From positions 1 to 62,982 of the forward strand of contig NZ_JAOTIF010000034.1 in the NCBI RefSeq assembly GCF_025628885.1: a stretch of DNA of 62,982 nucleotides, read 5' to 3'. Below the pieces are notes generated by a model. That model ran no database searches, had not been told where the DNA came from, and saw nothing but the letters and a program-made list of their open reading frames with translations. How positions within the stretch are numbered: position 1 is the first letter of the stretch; each line of letters starts with the position of its first letter. This DNA is from Paraflavisolibacter caeni. GTDB lineage: Bacteria; Bacteroidota; Bacteroidia; Chitinophagales; Chitinophagaceae. This document shows positions 41,423 through 50,798 of this stretch, piece after piece. A program made the position numbers and the translations under genes.

Positions 41423-42418
41423 TCAACCAGCTACTCGTGAAATTTTATTCTCCAAAAGCATAAGATCTGCTAATACCATTGCAGTAACGGCCTCGAGTAC
41501 TGGTGGAACCCGCAATGCTATGCAAAGATCATGTCTGCCCTTAATAGAAAACTTTTCAACTTCACCGGTTTCCCAGTTCAATGACTCCTGCTCTTTAGGC
41601 GTGGAGGAAGTAGGCTTGATGGCAACACGAAAAACCAGGTCATTGCCATTTGAGATTCCACCTACAACGCCGCCGGCATTGTTTGTTGCAGTTCTTCCGT
41701 TAGCATCAATGATCGCATCATTGTGATCAACGCCAAACATCTTAGCTGCCTGAAAACCAGCACCAAATTCAATTCCTTTTACAGCAGGAATTGAAAAAGC
41801 TGCGTGACTTATCAATGATTCAACCGAATCAAAAAATGGTTCTCCCAATCCAATAGGTAAACCGGTAACTGTACACTCCACAATTCCACCCACAGAATCC
41901 TTGGCATCAATTGCTTTTTGTAATCCCTTTTCCAGGTCTTGCTCACCTCCTATTTCAAGGATTTTAGCAGTCACAGAAATGTTCTTCAAAACCTTTTTTG
42001 CTACCACACCGGCAGCAACAATGCAAACAGTTAGGCGCCCACTGAAGTGACCTCCGCCACGAAAGTCTTCATTGCTACCAAACTTTTTGCTAGCTACAAA
42101 GTCCGCATGGCCAGGACGTGGAAAGGATCTTTGTTTCTCGTAATCTGAAGAACGGGTATTTTTATTTTCAAACATAATTGTCAGCGGTGCGCCGGTAGTT
42201 TTGTCGCGGAAAATTCCTGTTTGAAAAATAGGTGCATCAGTTTCCTGACGGGGTGTGGTACCCTTTTGCGTACCACCCTTGCGGCGTTCAATATCTGTTG
42301 TAAAATCATCTGCTGTCAGTGCAACACCAGAAGGACAACCGTCTATTACAATACCTACTGCCGGGCCATGCGATTCACCAAATATGCTTACTCGAAAAAT
42401 GCGTCCAAAAGAGTTCAT
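41423..42418 (-). CDS. aroC: Chorismate synthase
   Basis: FMN-dependent last step of the shikimate pathway, EPSP to chorismate. The 331 residues begin with FGRIFRVSIFGESHGPAVGI (signature 1), include FPRPGHADFVASKKFG and the conserved GGGHFSGR and ITNGNDLVF-type regions (GGISNGNDLVFRVAIKPTSS). Slightly shorter than the usual 350-390 residues, as the ORF ends soon after ALRVPPVLEAVTAMVLADLM. The start codon follows the aroA stop after a single base, so the two are translationally coupled. Confidence 0.97.
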   Translation of the reverse strand: MNSFGRIFRVSIFGESHGPAVGIVIDGCPSGVALTADDFTTDIERRKGGTQKGTTPRQETDAPIFQTGIFRDKTTGAPLTIMFENKNTRSSDYEKQRSFPRPGHADFVASKKFGSNEDFRGGGHFSGRLTVCIVAAGVVAKKVLKNISVTAKILEIGGEQDLEKGLQKAIDAKDSVGGIVECTVTGLPIGLGEPFFDSVESLISHAAFSIPAVKGIEFGAGFQAAKMFGVDHNDAIIDANGRTATNNAGGVVGGISNGNDLVFRVAIKPTSSTPKEQESLNWETGEVEKFSIKGRHDLCIALRVPPVLEAVTAMVLADLMLLENKISRVAG

Positions 42419-42419
42419 G

Positions 42420-43694
42420 TTAATCGATTATAGAAAGTTGAGCGCCTAATTGTTTAATATTGCTCCAGAACTGGGGATAAGATTTATTTACCGCCTCAGC
42501 CCCGGTGATTACCATTTCGCCTTCGGATTTCAAACCGGCAACGGCTGTTGCCATGGCTATACGGTGATCATTATGCGAAGAAACTTCTGCTGCCTTTAAA
42601 GTCTTGCCTTCAATAATCATTTCATCATCTTCAAATGAAACAGGAATATTCAACTTGGTAAACTCTTCCTGCAAGGTGGCTGCACGGTTGCTCTCTTTAT
42701 GAGTTAACCGGTGTACGCCTTTGATCCTGGAAATTCCTTTACTGTGTGACGCAAGCGCTACCAGGGGAGGAAACAAGTCTGGACAGTCAGTTGCATCAAA
42801 TTCAAATGCTTTAAGTTCAGACTGTTTAACAGAAATAACTCCGTTCTCAGATTTCATATGTGCATTTGCTTTCAGCAACACATCAAAAATAGCTTTATCA
42901 CCCTGTACAGAATTCATATCCATACCCTTCAACTGTATATCTCCGGCAATAGCAGCACCGGTTAATAAGAACGCAGCATTGCTCCAGTCGCCTTCAACAG
43001 CATAGGTGATAGATGGTTGATCATTAGTTACTATGGCTTCATCAAAATAAAACTCCTCGTAATTATTATTCTGAGGCACTTTCAAGCCAAATGACTTCAA
43101 TACCTGTAATGTTAAGTCGACATAAGGACGACTGTTCAGGTTGGTAACTTTTATACTTACCCCTTTTGCGTCAGCTGCAGCATAAGCAAACAATAAACCC
43201 GTTAAATATTGTGAAGACAACGAGCCATCCACAGTTATATCTTTTGGCTGTAAGGGCCCCTGGATTTCAATAGGCAAATAACCGCCCTTGCTGTTACAAC
43301 TAACACCTAGTTGCGGAAGCACATCATCGAAAAAGTTCATTGGTCTTTTTGACAAGCTACCGGAGCCTTTAACAGTAATTACCTGATCGCTCAATGCAGC
43401 TATGGAAGTAAACATTCTTATAGACAAACCACTTTCATGGCAATCAATGACATTATAAACAGGCTGTACTCCATTGCTTCTGATGATTACTTTATCATCC
43501 TGAACAGTAACCTTTGCACCCAGCTGTTGAATGATATTCAAAGCAGCTTTATCGTCGTTAGAAATTCCGGGATTGAGTAAAACCGTTTCACCTTTACGAA
43601 TCAACGCTGCAGCACACGCTCGCTGCATCGCGCTTTTGGATGCTGGGGCTGTAATACTACCTTTTAGTTGTGAGGGAACCAGAACCGCTTTCAT
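42420..43694 (-). CDS. aroA: 3-phosphoshikimate 1-carboxyvinyltransferase (EPSP synthase)
   Basis: Adds the enolpyruvyl group of PEP to shikimate-3-phosphate. The 424-residue protein has SKSAMQRACAAALIRKGET (substrate-binding Lys region), LSSQYLTGLLFAYAAAD and the C-terminal SHNDHRIAMATAVAGLKSEG. The usual opening signature of the family (GSKSxxNR) reads ASKSAMQRA. Glyphosate-sensitive or -insensitive class cannot be stated with confidence. Coupled to aroC downstream, and separated from aroB by a hairpin. Confidence 0.95.
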   Translation of the reverse strand: MKAVLVPSQLKGSITAPASKSAMQRACAAALIRKGETVLLNPGISNDDKAALNIIQQLGAKVTVQDDKVIIRSNGVQPVYNVIDCHESGLSIRMFTSIAALSDQVITVKGSGSLSKRPMNFFDDVLPQLGVSCNSKGGYLPIEIQGPLQPKDITVDGSLSSQYLTGLLFAYAAADAKGVSIKVTNLNSRPYVDLTLQVLKSFGLKVPQNNNYEEFYFDEAIVTNDQPSITYAVEGDWSNAAFLLTGAAIAGDIQLKGMDMNSVQGDKAIFDVLLKANAHMKSENGVISVKQSELKAFEFDATDCPDLFPPLVALASHSKGISRIKGVHRLTHKESNRAATLQEEFTKLNIPVSFEDDEMIIEGKTLKAAEVSSHNDHRIAMATAVAGLKSEGEMVITGAEAVNKSYPQFWSNIKQLGAQLSIID

Positions 43695-43711: not shown

Positions 43712-43749
43712 GTGAATAGTGAATGGTGAATTGACCATTCACTATTCAC
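43712..43749. repeat. Perfect 16-bp hairpin in the aroB-aroA gap
   Basis: Arms gtgaatagtgaatggt (43712-43727) and its exact reverse complement (43734-43749) enclose a 6-nt loop and take up most of the 54-nt gap between aroB and aroA, reaching the aroB stop codon. No T-run follows on the minus strand, so it is more likely a processing or stability element, or a dispersed palindrome, than a terminator. Confidence 0.8.
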
Positions 43750-44759
43750 TATAGGTAATTAAACAAAGTATTTAAAGGAATTTTCTGAATGATGGCTTTT
43801 CCAATCTTTTCAAGTAAAATAAAGTTCATGAAATCCGCCTCTTTCTTCTTATCACTACGTAGCACATCAAAAACTTTCTGTCTGTCAAAGCTCAATTCAG
43901 TTGGTAAAGAGTACTGCTCTATTACCTTCGTCAAACGATTGTGATGCCTAAAACCCAACAACTCCTCAGAAAGACCGGAAGCGAACACCATTCCAATTGC
44001 AACAGCTTCGCCATGAGTAAGGCCATATTGAGTTTCTATGGCATGTGCCAGGGTATGACCAAAATTCAACAGCCTCCTTTCATTCTTCTCAAATTCATCA
44101 TTAAGAACCACTTTAGTCTTGATCAGGGCATTACGCTTGATCAAAGCCTGTACATCTGGTTTGTTTTTCTGGAAGCGTTTCAAAGAGGCACTTTCCAATT
44201 GTTTGAACATGGCAGCATCTTTAATTGCTGCATGTTTTATGATTTCAGCAAAGCCGTTGCGCCACTCTGTTTCAGGTAAAGATTTCAGCAGGCCTGCATC
44301 ATAAAGTAAGAAACGCGGCTGATTAATGGTGCCCACCATATTTTTATATACACCAACATCAATTCCGTTTTTACCACCAATGGATGCATCAACCATTGCA
44401 AGCAAACTGGTAGGAACAAATCCAAAGGCAACGCCTCTTAAAAATATGGAACCTATATATCCTGTCAAATCGGTGATAACACCCCCGCCTACACCAACAA
44501 GCATGGTTTGCCTGTCTGCACCAAGGTTTATTAATTGTTCAATTACCGAATCGACAGTAGCCTGAGTCTTAAATTGTTCACCTGGCTTTAAAACAATTGT
44601 CTTCCAACCTTTGAACTTTTTTGCATGAGCAGCAAACAGATGTTCATCAGTAATGACAATTGTCTTAGCCTGTGGCGCAATGCTTTTGAGATCGCTAAAG
44701 GACGCATCAAAATAATACTGTACACTTTGGCGGCTGAAATCAAACTTTTTTGTCTGCAT
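43749..44759 (-). CDS. aroB: 3-dehydroquinate synthase
   Basis: NAD- and metal-dependent cyclisation of DAHP to 3-dehydroquinate. The 336 residues contain LKPGEQFKT, VGVGGGVITDLTGYIGSIFL, VPTSLLAMVDASIGGKNGID (NAD/metal region) and the metal ligand GHTLAHAIE with a further His in LTHGEAVAIGM. Starts 2 nt after the DAHP synthase stop codon, indicating translational coupling. Confidence 0.96.
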   Translation of the reverse strand: MQTKKFDFSRQSVQYYFDASFSDLKSIAPQAKTIVITDEHLFAAHAKKFKGWKTIVLKPGEQFKTQATVDSVIEQLINLGADRQTMLVGVGGGVITDLTGYIGSIFLRGVAFGFVPTSLLAMVDASIGGKNGIDVGVYKNMVGTINQPRFLLYDAGLLKSLPETEWRNGFAEIIKHAAIKDAAMFKQLESASLKRFQKNKPDVQALIKRNALIKTKVVLNDEFEKNERRLLNFGHTLAHAIETQYGLTHGEAVAIGMVFASGLSEELLGFRHHNRLTKVIEQYSLPTELSFDRQKVFDVLRSDKKKEADFMNFILLEKIGKAIIQKIPLNTLFNYL

Positions 44760-44761
44760 CC

Positions 44762-45850
44762 TTAAGAATTAAACACTTTGGTTTGGTGATTAATACTTTC
44801 CAGGTGCACTGCATCAAAATATTTCGTAATAAACTCTTTGCTCAAACCCATCTTCTCTCCTTTCTTGAAGGCTCTGTCTAAGATCTCATTCCAACGGGCT
44901 GTTTGCAAGATGGTAATGTTGTTGTCTTTTTTATATTGACCAATTTTCTCGGCCACTTTCATCCTTTGTCCCAGGATTTGCATTAATTCATCATCGAGGT
45001 GATTGATCTGAGCACGCAATTTATCCAAAGCTGCATGATATTCTTCAGAAGGAATATCTTCTCTTCTCCAAATAATGCTGTTAAGCATTTCACCTAAACG
45101 CTCTGGAGTGATTTGTTGCTTGGCATCGCTCCATGCATTATCAGGGTCAATATGACTTTCAATGATCAATCCATCAAAATCAAGGTCAATCGCTTTTTGG
45201 GCTACTTCCTGTAAAATATCCCTGCGGCCACAAATGTGAGAAGGATCATTGATCATCAGCAATTCAGGATTGCGACGCTTCATTTCAATCGCCAAATGCC
45301 ACATTGGAGCGTTGCGGTATTCAGTATTTCCATAGGAAGAAAAACCACGGTGAATTAAACCAATGTCATTTATACCAGCTTTAGCAATACGCTCTACAGC
45401 GCCAATCCATAATTCCAGGTCTGGGTTGATAGGGTTTTTGATCAATACCGGAACCTTAACACCACGTAATGCATCAGCAATTTCCTGAACACTGAACGGG
45501 TTTACTGTAGTGCGGGCACCTACCCAAAGAATGTCTACATCGAAATGCAGGGCATCTTCTACTTGTTTAGCAGTTGCTACTTCTACGGCAGTTAACAGGC
45601 CGGTAACTTTTCTTGCATGTTGCAACCATGGTAAGCCTTTGGTCCCAATACCTTCAAAGCTGCCAGGACGAGTACGTGGTTTCCAGATACCGGAGCGTAA
45701 TACGTCTACTTTACCTGTTTGAGCCAGGCGTTGGGCGGTTTCTACAACCTGTTCCTCTGTTTCGGCACTGCATGGGCCTGAAATAATCAGCGGTCTTTTA
45801 TTCCATGCCGCCTGTACTTTGTTTTCCATAGTTGTTGTTTCTGCTTGCAT
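44762..45850 (-). CDS. Bifunctional DAHP synthase / chorismate mutase
   Basis: Catalyses the first step of aromatic synthesis (PEP plus erythrose-4-phosphate to DAHP) and, by its C-terminal domain, chorismate to prephenate. The N-terminal type I-beta DAHP synthase spans about residues 15-260 (LIISGPCSAETEEQVVETA, RSGIWKPRTRPGSFEGIG, PSHICGRRDILQEVAQKA, GLIIESHIDPDNAWSD). An AroQ chorismate mutase domain follows (KLRAQINHLDDELMQILGQR, MKVAEKIGQYKK, YFDAVHLESINHQ). The fusion lets the mutase domain regulate the synthase in related enzymes. The ATG at 45850 is preferred over a start 16 codons upstream. Confidence 0.94.
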   Translation of the reverse strand: MQAETTTMENKVQAAWNKRPLIISGPCSAETEEQVVETAQRLAQTGKVDVLRSGIWKPRTRPGSFEGIGTKGLPWLQHARKVTGLLTAVEVATAKQVEDALHFDVDILWVGARTTVNPFSVQEIADALRGVKVPVLIKNPINPDLELWIGAVERIAKAGINDIGLIHRGFSSYGNTEYRNAPMWHLAIEMKRRNPELLMINDPSHICGRRDILQEVAQKAIDLDFDGLIIESHIDPDNAWSDAKQQITPERLGEMLNSIIWRREDIPSEEYHAALDKLRAQINHLDDELMQILGQRMKVAEKIGQYKKDNNITILQTARWNEILDRAFKKGEKMGLSKEFITKYFDAVHLESINHQTKVFNS

Positions 45851-45946
45851 TGTTTTGCTTTTATTTCGGTGGTTAAATCGTGAATGACGAATGGTCAATT
45901 GTGATTAGCATCTTCTCTTTGCATTCTACATTCAACATTTTAAATA

Positions 45947-46834
45947 TTATATTTTAGACTTTTCTTCTACCCTCTTCTGTTTTGCCAGATCTGGATTCAG
46001 AACTTTTTTGATCTTATTGGCATTCACCATGAGCTCCTCTAAATACTCATAGTTCTCTTTCTCAAGACACGACTTGAACTTTCTCAATTGGCTGATATGT
46101 TCATTCAATACATCCAGTACATTCTCCCTGTTTTGCATAAATATAGACGCCCAGGTTGCCGGATTACTTTTCGCCAAACGTACAGTGCTCTCAAAACCTC
46201 CGCTTGCCAGTTCAAAGATCGTATCTTCTTCTTTTTCCTTTTCCAACACGGTATTTGCTAAGGCGAAAGAAGTTATGTGCGAAATATGGCTCACATAAGC
46301 AACATGAACATCATGTGCCTGTCCATTCATATAAACCAGGTGCATACCCAGTTCCTTATAAATGCTTTCAACCAACTTCAGCGCATCTGCGTCACTATCT
46401 TCCTGATTGCAAATAACTGTTGCTTTTTGAACGAAAGCATTTTTTACGGCTGCTTCTGGTCCGCTGTATTCCGTTCCCCACATTGGATGTGTTGCAACAA
46501 AGCGTCCTCTTTTGAGATGATCTTTGATCACCTCCAGGATACCTTCCTTAGTAGAACCAACATCAATAACAACCTGTTGATCTACCTGGTCCAGGACTTC
46601 AGGTAATAATCGCTTTACAGCATTAACTGGTGTAGCCAAAACAATCAAATCTGACCTCTTTATGGCATCGCAAAGGTCTGCTATCTCATCTACTAAATTC
46701 AACTCCAGGGCTTTTTGCTGGTGATCAGGATTTTGATCAACTCCAATGATGGTTTGAGCCAGGTTCTTTTCTTTTAATGCTAAAGCCAAGGAACCTCCGA
46801 TCAAACCGACACCAACGATTGCAACAGTTTTCAT
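45947..46834 (-). CDS. tyrA: Prephenate dehydrogenase
   Basis: NAD(P)-dependent oxidative decarboxylation of prephenate to 4-hydroxyphenylpyruvate, the tyrosine branch. The 295 residues show the Rossmann start VAIVGVGLIGGSLALALKEK, and the family motif FVATHPMWGTEYSGPEA with its His, and a C-terminal helical dimer domain with HVAYVSHISHITSFALAN (His-containing). No ACT or mutase domain is fused. Lies 20 nt downstream of the aminotransferase. Confidence 0.93.
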   Translation of the reverse strand: MKTVAIVGVGLIGGSLALALKEKNLAQTIIGVDQNPDHQQKALELNLVDEIADLCDAIKRSDLIVLATPVNAVKRLLPEVLDQVDQQVVIDVGSTKEGILEVIKDHLKRGRFVATHPMWGTEYSGPEAAVKNAFVQKATVICNQEDSDADALKLVESIYKELGMHLVYMNGQAHDVHVAYVSHISHITSFALANTVLEKEKEEDTIFELASGGFESTVRLAKSNPATWASIFMQNRENVLDVLNEHISQLRKFKSCLEKENYEYLEELMVNANKIKKVLNPDLAKQKRVEEKSKI

Positions 46835-46854: not shown

Positions 46855-48015
46855 TTAATCTCTTACTTCTATGATTCGTTGAATCGATTGTTCAATTTTT
46901 TCTATAGGGCTGCATAGACTTACACGTATGAAACCATCACCTGCTGAGCCAAATATTCCTCCAGGGGTAATGAATACTTTTGCTTTGTACAACACTTCAT
47001 CACTCAACTCAAACCCACTTTTGTAACCTTCCGGTATTCTTGCCCAAATAAACATACCAGCCTGGTCTTTAGAATAAGTACATTTCAATAAATCAAGCAG
47101 TTCATAAGCCTTTGTCCTCCTGCTTTTGTATACTTCATTTACACTATCATACCAGCTTTTATCTAGATTTAATGCTTTTGCCGCTGCCAATTGAAGAGGA
47201 AGGAACATACCACTGTCCATATTACTTTTAAAACGCAATACCTCATCAATCCGTTCTTTTGCACCACATAATACACCAACTCTCCAACCAGCCATATTTT
47301 GTGATTTGCTTAATGAGTTTAACTCCAGCACCACGTCTTTGGCACCTTCAATACTGAGCAAACTCATTGGATGATCATTCAGAATGAAGCTGTAAGGATT
47401 ATCATGACAAATTAAAATATTGTGCTTTTTGCCGAAGGCCACCAGGTTTTGGAACATTTCTCGAGTAGGAAGTTGACCTGTAGGCATTTGTGGATAGTTC
47501 ACCCACATCAGTTTCACTTTACTTAAATCCTGTTTTTCAAGCTGATCAAAGTCGATAAGCCAGTTTTGCTCCTCTTTCAATTCATAGGCAACACATTTAC
47601 CGCCTGCCAATTGAACAGCACTCCTGTAAGTAGGATAACCAGGATTAGGAATCAAGACCTCATCTCCTTCATTCAAATATGTCATGCATATATGCATGAT
47701 ACCTTCTTTAGATCCGATCAAGGGTAGAATTTCTGTTGCAGGGTTCAGGTCTACTCCATACCATTCTTTATACCATGTACTGAATGCTTTTCTTAAGGCT
47801 TCAGCTCCCTTATAACTCTGATAACCATGTACATTTTGCTTTGCAGATTCTGATTGCAGCACCTGGATCACTTCAGGATGAGGTGGCAAGTCAGGGCTGC
47901 CAATACCTAAATTAATAACAGCTGCACCTTGCTTATTGAGCTCTTCTATTTCTTTCAGCTTTTGAGAAAAATAATATTCACCAATACCATCCAGTCTTTT
48001 TGAAGTAGAAATCAT
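46855..48015 (-). CDS. PLP-dependent class I/II aminotransferase, likely aromatic
   Basis: A 386-residue fold-type I aminotransferase: GIGSPDLPPHPEVI, the PLP-binding Lys in LNSLSKSQNMAGWRVGVLCG, and the Asn/Tyr positions CHDNPYSF. Sequence resembles the LL-diaminopimelate/aspartate aminotransferase group. Its place between pheA and tyrA in the operon suggests that it transaminates phenylpyruvate and 4-hydroxyphenylpyruvate (the last step to Phe and Tyr), but substrate specificity is inferred from context only. Confidence 0.85.
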   Translation of the reverse strand: MISTSKRLDGIGEYYFSQKLKEIEELNKQGAAVINLGIGSPDLPPHPEVIQVLQSESAKQNVHGYQSYKGAEALRKAFSTWYKEWYGVDLNPATEILPLIGSKEGIMHICMTYLNEGDEVLIPNPGYPTYRSAVQLAGGKCVAYELKEEQNWLIDFDQLEKQDLSKVKLMWVNYPQMPTGQLPTREMFQNLVAFGKKHNILICHDNPYSFILNDHPMSLLSIEGAKDVVLELNSLSKSQNMAGWRVGVLCGAKERIDEVLRFKSNMDSGMFLPLQLAAAKALNLDKSWYDSVNEVYKSRRTKAYELLDLLKCTYSKDQAGMFIWARIPEGYKSGFELSDEVLYKAKVFITPGGIFGSAGDGFIRVSLCSPIEKIEQSIQRIIEVRD

Positions 48016-48070: not shown

Positions 48071-48901
48071 TTAAACAGTCTTTCCTTTTTTATAGACACC
48101 GTAAACCTTTAATTCCTCTGTTAACGGTTTTATTTTATCCATTGCTCTCTCAAATTGACTGAGGGAATCAAATTCCATATCTGCATGAAAACTATATTTC
48201 CAGTCGCTACCTGGAATTGGAAAGCTTTGCAACTTGCTTAGATTAATACCACTTTCTGCAATCTTCGTTAACACCTTTGCCAAACTTCCACGTGAATGAT
48301 CTGTATGAAAATTCACAGACGCCTTGTTGGGTTCATCAATTTCCTGAATAGCGTCTTCTCTTTGCAATATCAAAAAGCGGGTGTAATTGTTCTTCATAGT
48401 ATGAATATTGGGAGCAATTACATCCAGGTCAAATAATTCAGCGGCCAGCTTGCTTGCCACAGCAGCGATATGTGTGCTTCTTTTTTGATGGATATGTTTG
48501 GCGCTAAGGGCTGTATCTTCAGTTTCAACCAGCTTCCAGTTGTATTTATCCAGGTAATCAAGGCACTGCTGCAATGCCATAGGGTGGGAATGAACTTCTT
48601 TAATATCCTCAAGTTTTACGCCTCTGTTAACCAGTAAATTCTGCTTGATTTGAAGATAAATCTCTCCAGTAACTTTTAAATTACTTTTTTGCAGCAGGTT
48701 GTAATTAGGTAAAATACTCCCTGCAATCGAATTCTCGATGGCCATGACACCGCCATCACTTTCTTTTTTGTTACCGGCAATTTTTACCACTTCACGAAAA
48801 GTCGCACATGTAATGACTTCAACACCTTTACCAAAAAATTGACGGGCTGCTACCTGGTGGAAACTTCCTTCAAAACCTTGAATTGAAACCCTGACAGCCA
48901 T
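48071..48901 (-). CDS. pheA: Prephenate dehydratase
   Basis: Converts prephenate to phenylpyruvate for phenylalanine. The 276 residues have the periplasmic-binding-like catalytic region (IQGFEGSFHQVAARQFFG, MAIENSIAGSI), the catalytic Thr-Arg motif NNYTRFLILQ and a C-terminal ACT domain (ASVNFHTDHSRGSLAKVLTK). In the ACT domain the usual ESRP of Phe-feedback enzymes reads QSFP (LSKLQSFPIPGSDWKY). There is no fused chorismate mutase; that activity is in the DAHP synthase fusion. First structural gene of the operon, behind a leader. Confidence 0.94.
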   Translation of the reverse strand: MAVRVSIQGFEGSFHQVAARQFFGKGVEVITCATFREVVKIAGNKKESDGGVMAIENSIAGSILPNYNLLQKSNLKVTGEIYLQIKQNLLVNRGVKLEDIKEVHSHPMALQQCLDYLDKYNWKLVETEDTALSAKHIHQKRSTHIAAVASKLAAELFDLDVIAPNIHTMKNNYTRFLILQREDAIQEIDEPNKASVNFHTDHSRGSLAKVLTKIAESGINLSKLQSFPIPGSDWKYSFHADMEFDSLSQFERAMDKIKPLTEELKVYGVYKKGKTV

Positions 48902-48947: not shown

Positions 48948-48978
48948 AAAAACAACAAATCCCGGCTTTTGGCCGGGA
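48948..48978 (-). terminator. Attenuator terminator before pheA
   Basis: On the minus strand, tcccggc (48978-48972) pairs with gccggga (48966-48960) around a 5-nt loop (caaaa), followed by tttgttgttttt (48959-48948). It lies 70 nt downstream of the helicase-side promoter region and 47 nt before the pheA ATG. Confidence 0.85.
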
Positions 48979-49033
48979 CTCTTTATGTTGACTTCATTCA
49001 TTTTATGTTCAGTTTCAACAAAAGCATCCCGGC
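48960..49033 (-). promoter_or_regulatory. Antiterminator/terminator switch upstream of pheA
   Basis: The segment aagccgggat occurs twice on the minus strand: at 49035-49026 inside the leader-peptide coding region, and at 48968-48959 as the 3' arm of the terminator. The 5' arm tcccggc (48978-48972) can therefore pair with gccggga at 49033-49027 (antiterminator) or 48966-48960 (terminator). These are mutually exclusive folds of the trp/phe attenuation type. The pairing is read directly; the regulation is inferred. Confidence 0.75.
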
Positions 49034-49086
49034 TTCTCGCTAAAGAAGTAAAAATAAAAGTAATAATATGCTCTTGTTGTTTTCAT
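49015..49086 (-). CDS. Aromatic-rich leader peptide of the pheA operon
   Basis: A 23-codon frame, ATG at 49086 and TGA at 49017-49015. Residues 7-15 are nine consecutive aromatic codons, Y Y Y F Y F Y F F (five Tyr and four Phe), at 49068-49042. The peptide starts MKTTRA and ends SEKPGCFC. Such a run is the sensor design of ribosome-mediated attenuators: scarce Tyr- or Phe-tRNA would stall a ribosome here and leave the downstream arm 49033-49027 free. Nothing else would be expected to produce this composition next to pheA. Too short for most gene finders. Confidence 0.85.
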   Translation of the reverse strand: MKTTRAYYYFYFYFFSEKPGCFC

Positions 49087-49093
49087 CGTGGCG

Positions 49094-49101
49094 CAAAAAT
49101 A
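49094..49101 (-). promoter_or_regulatory. -7 promoter element for the leader and pheA operon
   Basis: TATTTTTG (minus strand, 49101 to 49094) fits TAnnTTTG and ends 7 nt before the leader-peptide ATG, so the predicted transcript begins at or next to that ATG. TTTG elements 11 and 2 nt upstream exist but at non-standard spacing. Confidence 0.55.
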
Positions 49102-49124: not shown

Positions 49125-50798
49125 TTAATCATTAGTTTTTTTACGAACAAACGAATCCGCCTCGTTCATCCTGATCCGCCGGCCTTTATACTTTTTACCA
49201 TCAATAGCCCGGATCATTTGATTGGCTGAATTTTTATCAACTTCAATCCAGCTATTCATTTCTTTCATATCGATGCGTCCTAAAACATCCTTTCTAAGGT
49301 CACTCAGGTCAAGGATAAATTGCAGGAAACTGGCTTTGTAAAAACCGTCTTTTGTTCCAAGATTTACAAACAATCTTGTATAATTACCATTTCCGCCAAA
49401 CTCTTTTTTGCCTTCTCTTTTCCTGCCCGCATGAGACTCCTGCCTTTCAACACCTCTTTCCCGGCCTCGCTCACGAACATTCAAATCTTCTGAGTTTTCA
49501 TAATACTTCAGGAAACGATCAAACTCCATGGCAGCTACCCTTTTCATGATCTCTTCTTTGCTCATGTCATTGAACTTTTCCTGGAGCATCGGCATATAGG
49601 TCTCATAATCGCCGTGGCTAATGTCAGCTTGCAGCAGTTTATCAATAAAGTAGTAAAACTGCTTTCTGCAAACATCTTTTCCGGAAGGAATCTCCAGTTT
49701 ATGAAATGGTGCCTGGACCATTCTTTCTATCTGCCTGATTCTACCTACCTCGCGGGCGTGTACAATAGACATGCAAACCCCAGTCTTGCCGGCACGTCCG
49801 GTACGACCGCTCCGGTGCGTGTATACTTCAATGTCATCGGGAAGTTCATAATTGATAACATGCGTAATTCCTTGCACGTCAATACCACGGGCAGCCACAT
49901 CAGTAGCAATGAGTAATTGCAAGGTTTTATCACGAAAACCACTCATCACTTTATTACGTTGTGCCTGGGTAAGATCTCCATGCAAAGCTTCAATATCATA
50001 GCCTTCCCTGGTCAGTTTTTCTGAAATCTCCTGGGCATCCGCTTTAGTGCGTGTAAAAATAATTCCATACATGCCAGGATTAAAGTCAATCAAACGCTTA
50101 AGTGCTTCATAACGATGGAAGGCAGTTGTCGTAAAGTATTGATGATCAATATTAACATTGGCAGTATTCATCTTACCCACTGTAATTTCCTTGGGTTGTT
50201 GCATGTAGCGCTTGCTTACATTCCTGATTTCTGCAGGCATGGTAGCGCTAAAAAGCCATGTGCTATCACGCTTGGGCGTGTTTTTCAATATAAATTCGAT
50301 GTCTTCCTGGAAGCCCATGTTCAACATTTCGTCGGCTTCATCCAGCACAACATATTTAATTTGGTCCAGGTTAATTGCCTTACGCTCAATCAAATCAATC
50401 AAACGGCCAGGGGTAGCTACCACAATCTGTACGCCTCTTTTAATATCTTTTATCTGCATTATAATAGAAGCACCGCCATAAACAGCAGTTACATGTATGC
50501 CATGAGAAAACTTCTTAAAGAGAGTGATTTCATTTACGATCTGCATGCACAGTTCGCGGGTTGGACAAACGATTAAAGCTTGGGGGTGTTTCTGCTTCTC
50601 ATCAACTAATTGAAGCAAAGGCAGCCCATAAGCAGCTGTTTTTCCTGTACCTGTCTGGGCAAGCCCAATCAGGTCTTTTGTTCCGGATAATAAGACCGGA
50701 ATAGCTTGAAGTTGTATTGGTGTTGGTTGTATGAATCCCAGTTCATCTACTGCTTTAAGCAGTTGTTCATTTAATCCAAGCTCACTAAAAGTGTTCAT
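49125..50798 (-). CDS. DEAD-box RNA helicase with DbpA-type RNA-binding domain
   Basis: ATP-dependent RNA helicase, probably in ribosome assembly or mRNA turnover. The 557 residues show the Q motif FIQPTPIQLQAIP, motif I GLAQTGTGKTAAY, PTRELCMQI, motif II LDEADEML, SATMP, ATDVAARGIDVQG and motif VI HRSGRTGRAGKTG. A charged linker (ERGRERGVERQ, then GRKREGKKE) precedes a DbpA-like RNA-binding domain (TRLFVNLGTKDGFYKASFLQ through KKYKGRRIRMNE). Length and architecture fit the CsdA/DeaD group. Its stop lies just before the pheA-operon promoter. Confidence 0.95.
   Translation of the reverse strand: MNTFSELGLNEQLLKAVDELGFIQPTPIQLQAIPVLLSGTKDLIGLAQTGTGKTAAYGLPLLQLVDEKQKHPQALIVCPTRELCMQIVNEITLFKKFSHGIHVTAVYGGASIIMQIKDIKRGVQIVVATPGRLIDLIERKAINLDQIKYVVLDEADEMLNMGFQEDIEFILKNTPKRDSTWLFSATMPAEIRNVSKRYMQQPKEITVGKMNTANVNIDHQYFTTTAFHRYEALKRLIDFNPGMYGIIFTRTKADAQEISEKLTREGYDIEALHGDLTQAQRNKVMSGFRDKTLQLLIATDVAARGIDVQGITHVINYELPDDIEVYTHRSGRTGRAGKTGVCMSIVHAREVGRIRQIERMVQAPFHKLEIPSGKDVCRKQFYYFIDKLLQADISHGDYETYMPMLQEKFNDMSKEEIMKRVAAMEFDRFLKYYENSEDLNVRERGRERGVERQESHAGRKREGKKEFGGNGNYTRLFVNLGTKDGFYKASFLQFILDLSDLRKDVLGRIDMKEMNSWIEVDKNSANQMIRAIDGKKYKGRRIRMNEADSFVRKKTND

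Follow-up and report, generated by a model that had tools for sequence, protein, structure and literature searches.

A short aromatic leader precedes the pheA-aro genes

The window (the whole 62,982-nucleotide stretch of Paraflavisolibacter caeni DNA analyzed, contig NZ_JAOTIF010000034.1) carries on its minus strand, in order of reading, pheA for prephenate dehydratase (48071..48901, ATG at 48901; Pfam PF00800, E 5.8e-57), a class I/II aminotransferase gene (46855..48015; PF00155), tyrA for prephenate dehydrogenase (45947..46834; NF006307 above cut-off), a gene for DAHP synthase fused to chorismate mutase (44762..45898; PF00793 and PF01817), whose listed TTG start may lie too early, aroB for 3-dehydroquinate synthase (43749..44759; TIGR01357 above cut-off), aroA for EPSP synthase (42420..43694; TIGR01356 above cut-off), and aroC for chorismate synthase (41423..42418; TIGR00033 above cut-off). 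Profile search confirms the gene content that the initial annotation had described, a combined Tyr, Phe, and shikimate set after the leader, and the genes downstream make the amino acids that an attenuator at this position would sense. The order and shared strand of the genes suggest that pheA to aroC form one operon. A gene of the thiamine-binding-protein family (PF01910; 41096-41392, minus strand) directly follows aroC and possibly belongs to the same operon. At the other end, a DEAD-box helicase ORF occupies 49125-50798, with its stop codon just upstream of the leader region.

Direct reading of the minus strand places a Bacteroidota sigma −7 element, TATTTTTG (TAnnTTTG), at 49094..49101 and a leader peptide ORF of 23 amino acids, MKTTRAYYYFYFYFFSEKPGCFC, at 49015..49086, with its ATG at 49086-49084 and its stop codon, TGA, at 49017-49015. 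Nine consecutive Tyr/Phe codons, the putative sensor, occupy 49042..49068. Between the leader and pheA lies a predicted intrinsic terminator (48948..48978, minus strand), in which TCCCGGC (48978-48972; the last part of arm 3) and GCCGGGA (48966-48960; arm 4) enclose the loop CAAAA and are followed by a T-rich tract (48959-48948). The sequence of the hairpin 3′ arm, aagccgggat, recurs inside the leader at 49035-49026. The initial annotation had placed the promoter element, the 23-codon leader, the nine-codon run, the 7-bp GC terminator with its T tract before pheA, and the repeat within the leader, and all of its coordinates are right.

The leader is conserved in the family and beyond it

We scored a leader as present where, upstream of pheA, a short ORF has 7 or more aromatic codons in a stretch of 12. 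By this rule, a leader is found in 98 of the 103 genomes with a PheA match among 147 sampled from the family, the window's own genome included; the same rule finds one in 8/1030 dinucleotide shuffles and on 2/103 opposite strands. With a stricter rule, at least 8 in 12, the counts are 92/103 for family genomes vs. 0/1030 for shuffles and 1/103 for opposite strands. The five family genomes missed comprise two with 6 aromatic codons in 12 (G135 and G054), one in which the leader module precedes an aminotransferase gene and a prephenate dehydrogenase gene (tyrA) and not pheA (G049; genes assigned by Pfam), and G041 and G075. The module precedes aminotransferase-tyrA genes, and not pheA, in G074 as well (genes assigned by eye).

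A second, named set was taken from a PheA scan of contigs as the best 80 of 201 loci, with titles that name Chitinophagaceae, Sphingobacteriales, or Bacteroidetes bacteria or genera such as Niastella and Terrimonas. A run of at least 4 aromatic codons within 500 nt marks a leader in 77/80 of these loci; three are missed: only 45 nt of upstream sequence is available at L018, and a looser rule recovers the leaders of L038 and L056. In a draw across the phylum, PheA was matched in 258/296 genomes, 9 of them in the family and 249 outside it, and we examined 61 of the 249, drawn almost entirely from the best-ranked matches, with three that have long fused frames (G421, G274, and G413) left out and one from lower in the ranking (G319) included. 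A leader is present in 51/61 and absent by rule in 10, a proportion that describes a top-ranked sample and not the phylum as a whole. By family, leaders were found in 29/29 genomes of f5, 7/7 of f3, 5/5 of f2, 3/7 of f8, 2/2 each of f9 and f11, 1/2 of f34, and 1/1 each of f16 and f19, and in 0/1 each of f30, f38, f39, f42, and f50.

A covariance model of the element matches 57/98 family genomes at E <1e-6, in one place each (as counted from the listing), and 84/98 at a loose E of 0.01. Five weak matches (G031, G000:C1, G071:C14, G072:C44, and G037:C44) have no aromatic leader; we set these aside as hairpin-only or chance matches.

Two further observations concern the distribution of the module. 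Upstream of pheA in L174 (G006), L179 (G106), L192 (G306), L193 (G215), and L217 (G180), two aromatic leader and hairpin modules stand in tandem, an arrangement that would make a double gate. The locus L059 (JADCRZ010000042.1), titled as a Williamsia sp. MAG, has a pheA 79% identical to that of the window and the same kind of leader; it is possibly a mislabelled bin.

The terminator and antiterminator helices covary

In the window, arm 2 (49015..49033), which lies within the leader ORF, is the predicted 5′ arm of the antiterminator, and arm 3 (48972..48991) is its 3′ arm, the last part of which is also the 5′ arm of the terminator. We analyzed an alignment of 80 sequences, comprising the window and 79 loci (hairpin ends of L008, L038, and L050 set by eye). 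Because RNAalifold returned only the terminator from the 80-sequence alignment, we counted paired and changed cells for the named helices and compared the counts, uncorrected for relatedness, with those in 500 shuffles.

For the terminator helix (3:4), 96.2% of cells are paired, 8/12 pairs are changed on both sides, and 56 cells are changed on both sides vs. 4.4 in shuffles; 0/500 shuffles are as good on any measure. For the 17-pair antiterminator helix (2:3), 87.1% of cells are paired (reached by 0/500 shuffles), 9/17 pairs are changed on both sides (6/500), and 43 cells are changed on both sides vs. 16.2 in shuffles (0/500). On one of the five measures, further pair types, the antiterminator in this alignment is not above shuffles (84/500).

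To the column counts we added a swap test on 201 distinct modules, drawn from 245 upstream regions (81 of the named set, window included, 103 of the family, and 61 from outside it); the regions beyond the 201 are identical copies or fail the leader or hairpin rule. The mean energy of the native 2:3 duplex is −20.46 kcal/mol, vs. −15.34 kcal/mol with permuted partners, a difference of 5.1 kcal/mol in favor of the native duplex (z −24.6); a reversed-partner control, which captures the effect of shared ancestry and composition alone, gives z −6.0. In several loci, a variant core is matched in both leader and terminator: GCGGGA in L021 and L060, GACCGGG in L016, and CGGGGG in L022. The motif CCGGG is present in arm 2 of 128/201 modules, and falls in leader frames 0, 2, and 1 in 90, 30, and 8 of these, respectively; its occurrence in all three frames indicates that it is the RNA rather than the peptide that is kept in those modules. 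We conclude that the module contains the structure of an intrinsic terminator between leader and pheA and that of an antiterminator built in part from the terminator 5′ arm. The initial annotation had proposed that tcccggc can pair with either copy of the repeat. The alternative stands, with covariation in both helices; its extent does not, since the antiterminator involves about 17 pairs (17 in the consensus; in the window, 49033-49015 with 48991-48972) and reaches beyond the 7-bp core formed by the repeat.

Two groups of loci depart from the common arms. In eight Flavihumibacter-like loci (L042, L046, L047, L048, L053, L067, L069, and L076), arm 2 contains CCGGCG, which leaves one mismatch within the GC core of 2:3; the energies of their whole 2:3 duplexes stay close to the set mean (−19.6 to −22.8 vs. 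−22.55). In L177 (G124) and L180 (G030), whose arms differ from the CCGGGA type, the leader stop codon lies, as judged by eye, in the likely antiterminator arm, with TGAGG facing CCTCA of the hairpin.

These results bear on a simpler explanation of the hairpin, that it serves only to end transcription of the DEAD-box helicase gene upstream, the aromatic ORF being coincidental. The helicase stop codon does lie close by in the window. However, a DEAD-box helicase is present within 3.5 kb in only 18 of the 73 relatives having at least 2.5 kb of upstream sequence, yet the module is present in those relatives; the presence of the leader in 98/103 family genomes and the covariation of arms 2 and 3 also speak against it. 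We regard this explanation as exceedingly improbable.

Ribosome position is predicted to select between the helices

Arm 2 starts 6-10 nt past the last aromatic codon in 174/201 modules. This gap is about the reach of a ribosome ahead of its A site, and the same value of the reach was used in folding tests. Given this reach, arm 2 stays free in 201/201 modules when the ribosome sits on the first aromatic codon, whereas a ribosome at the stop codon leaves the terminator 5′ arm untouched in 201/201 and overlaps half or more of arm 2 in 133/201. In folds of the RNA as it would be before arm 4 is made, arm 3 is held by upstream sequence in 199, 201, and 188 of 201 modules when the ribosome stands on the first, the middle, and the last aromatic codon, respectively, in 4/201 with a ribosome at the stop codon, and in 185/201 with no ribosome. 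Shuffled spacers also hold arm 3, in 571/1005 cases by a loose criterion, and the pre-arm-4 test is therefore supportive rather than strong. When the full RNA is folded to equilibrium, the terminator is preferred at all four ribosome positions in 146/201 modules; in those, the antiterminator must win kinetically. The full leader without a ribosome forms the terminator in 192/201.

For the window, the equilibrium folds at the four ribosome positions are, in order, antiterminator, antiterminator, terminator, and terminator. The initial annotation had suggested that a ribosome stalled late in the run might partly cover the antiterminator arm, and the folds agree: RNA downstream of a ribosome at codon 7 or 11 folds into the antiterminator, and RNA downstream of one at codon 15 into the terminator.

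A third helix is possible within the leader, where arm 1 of the window (49068..49079) is able to pair with 49027-49016 (1:2). Such pairing would complete the classic layout, and it is less well supported than 2:3 and 3:4. One may suppose that only 2:3 and 3:4 matter and that 1:2 has no role, in which case an untranslated leader would give read-through and not termination. Consistent with this supposition, on the fixed columns of the 80-sequence alignment the 10-pair 1:2 helix is little above shuffles (81.7% vs. 80.5% of cells paired; 15/500), and arm 3 is mostly held upstream in the ribosome-free, pre-arm-4 folds described above. Against it, 1:2 pairing falls to 42-52% of cells, from 81.7%, once the partner is displaced by 1-3 columns; native 1:2 duplexes are 3.1 kcal/mol better than permuted ones across the 201 modules (z −15.0, with z −2.8 for the reversed-partner control); the window RNA folded without a ribosome forms 1:2 plus 3:4; and, by eye in the alignment, arm 1 shifts register together with arm 2 in L004, L035, and L051. 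We judge an attenuator of two helices to be possible and rather unlikely; it would leave the core of the attenuator explanation in place.

The predicted transcription start is close to the leader start codon

The promoter element also predicts where the leader RNA begins. In passages of two reports on mapped flavobacterial promoters (PMC6847099; PMC9723704), the G of the element is at −5, which would put +1 of the window near 49089, give a 5′ UTR of about 3 nt, and place the AUG at +4. Among the 201 modules, TAnnTTTG ends 4-10 nt before the start codon in 121 (a raw count, in which the choice of start codon favored a nearby TTTG-like motif), and stands 12-30 nt before it in 20; the other 60 lack an exact match. 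With G at −5, the first 121 modules would have their leader AUG between about +1 and +7. According to the passages available from each source, leaderless transcripts make up 5.5% in F. psychrophilum (PMC9723704), 5′ UTRs shorter than 10 nt account for about 3.7% in B. thetaiotaomicron (PMC7366714), and 87% of 5′ UTRs in F. johnsoniae are longer than 10 nt (PMC6847099); the phylum is described as lacking Shine-Dalgarno sequences (PMC6847099). With only about 3 nt between its start codon and the predicted start of transcription, the leader would be unusual for a phylum in which very short 5′ UTRs are reported to be rare.

A mixed Phe/Tyr run as the putative sensor

All 201 compared leader runs contain both Phe and Tyr codons, so that the mixture of the two in one run, which the initial annotation had noted for the window, is general in this set. 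Residue totals over the 201 runs are 1075 Phe, 714 Tyr, 41 Trp, and 318 other, and both synonymous codons of each residue occur (TTT 761, TTC 314, TAT 364, and TAC 350).

The composition of the runs helps to distinguish stalling for want of charged tRNA from sensing by the nascent peptide, in which, on the model of TnaC, the peptide inside the exit tunnel would detect free Phe or Tyr, thereby arresting the ribosome with no stall from tRNA shortage. The leader peptides are quite alike, with KAY...FYFYF...RPGMLLL in many, a point in favor of such sensing. In contrast, Phe and Tyr interchange along the run, the codons of each are used without restriction to one synonym, and the residues after the run differ according to the frame in which the kept RNA arm is read. 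We consider sensing by the nascent peptide very improbable.

Taken together, the results make it very likely that a ribosome-mediated transcription attenuator controls the predicted pheA-aminotransferase-tyrA-DAHPS/CM-aroB-aroA-aroC operon, a reading drawn from sequence and its comparison. The conserved leader and the covarying alternative helices bear out the view of the initial annotation that the element follows the trp/phe design; in the alignment of related pheA upstream regions that it had called for, leader ORF and alternative pairing are both conserved. According to the attenuation hypothesis, RNA polymerase would begin some 3 nt upstream of the leader ATG, with a ribosome following. 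Scarcity of charged tRNA-Phe or tRNA-Tyr would stall the ribosome in the nine-codon Tyr/Phe run, leaving arm 2, just past the run, free to pair with arm 3 as the antiterminator; with arm 3 taken, arms 3 and 4 could not pair, and transcription would proceed into pheA. Where both tRNAs are charged, the ribosome would reach the stop codon and cover arm 2, the 3:4 terminator would form, and transcription would end in the T tract. Since the run alternates between Phe and Tyr codons, a lack of either one of the two amino acids should suffice to open the operon.

Relation to known attenuators

A scan of the whole window with Rfam (release 15) at the gathering score gave 0 matches, T-box and known riboswitch models included, and a lax threshold gave ten chance-level matches, among them Phe_leader. 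The window element aligns end to end with this model (RF01859, model positions 1-125), with a score of 16.8 bits vs. a gathering score of 55 and an E of 2.3, which by that test places the element of the window outside that family. The module constitutes a conserved, alignable family of probable attenuators that Rfam release 15 does not recognize in the window. A comparative survey of attenuators by Lopatovskaya et al. (2010), cited in PMC4833913, may bear on the pheA leader. The passages available from PMC7366714, PMC9723704, PMC6847099, PMC4833913, PMC1183508, and PMC2659441 contain no description of the window's pheA leader. Within the same phylum, the transcriptome of Flavobacterium psychrophilum gave strong clues of leader-peptide attenuation before amino-acid operons, and the passages available from that report mention neither a pheA leader nor a sequence nor covariation (PMC9723704). 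In the literature found, attenuation in the phylum is suspected from transcriptome data and not dissected.

Other leaders of related design were seen in the course of the analysis. A trp leader, MKKTNNQYWWWHTNS, lies elsewhere in the genome of the window, at G000:C23:180063 (L272:164-297), with its ATG 7 nt after TTTG. It shares with the pheA leader a run of control codons (WWW) and a GC hairpin with T tract, here followed by trpE-, trpG-, and trpD-type genes, and differs in having Trp codons and other arms; similar WWW leaders were seen by eye in several other family genomes. At L287 (G087:C2:1643473), an Ile/Val-rich leader, VTIINIIILMAIVIII, and a hairpin precede class IV aminotransferase and ilvD-type genes, a candidate branched-chain attenuator.

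We give an even chance to the broader proposal that much of this organism's class keeps aromatic amino-acid synthesis, and perhaps trp and branched-chain synthesis, under near-leaderless attenuators on which the ribosome loads once the start codon exits polymerase. If so, the coupling of transcription and translation would be tight from the first codon onward, in a phylum without Shine-Dalgarno sequences, and one mixed run would sense both Phe and Tyr. The pheA leader offers a direct test of transcription-translation coupling in such bacteria and of whether one leader senses two amino acids.

In the enterobacterial layout, antiterminator and terminator arms are alternatives, and E. coli PheL senses Phe alone. 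Passages of PMC1183508 describe enterobacterial ribosome-mediated attenuators for the trp, his, leu, thr, ilv, and pheA operons. The window element shares with these a leader ORF with control codons and the antiterminator/terminator alternatives, and differs from them in its mixed Phe/Tyr codons, in a start codon predicted to lie nearly at the 5′ end, and in belonging to a phylum without Shine-Dalgarno sequences, as stated in the abstract of PMC6847099. We conclude that the proposed mechanism is textbook attenuation, and that the element itself, its mixed Phe/Tyr run, its breadth, and its near-leaderless start are features additional to those described in the literature passages cited here.
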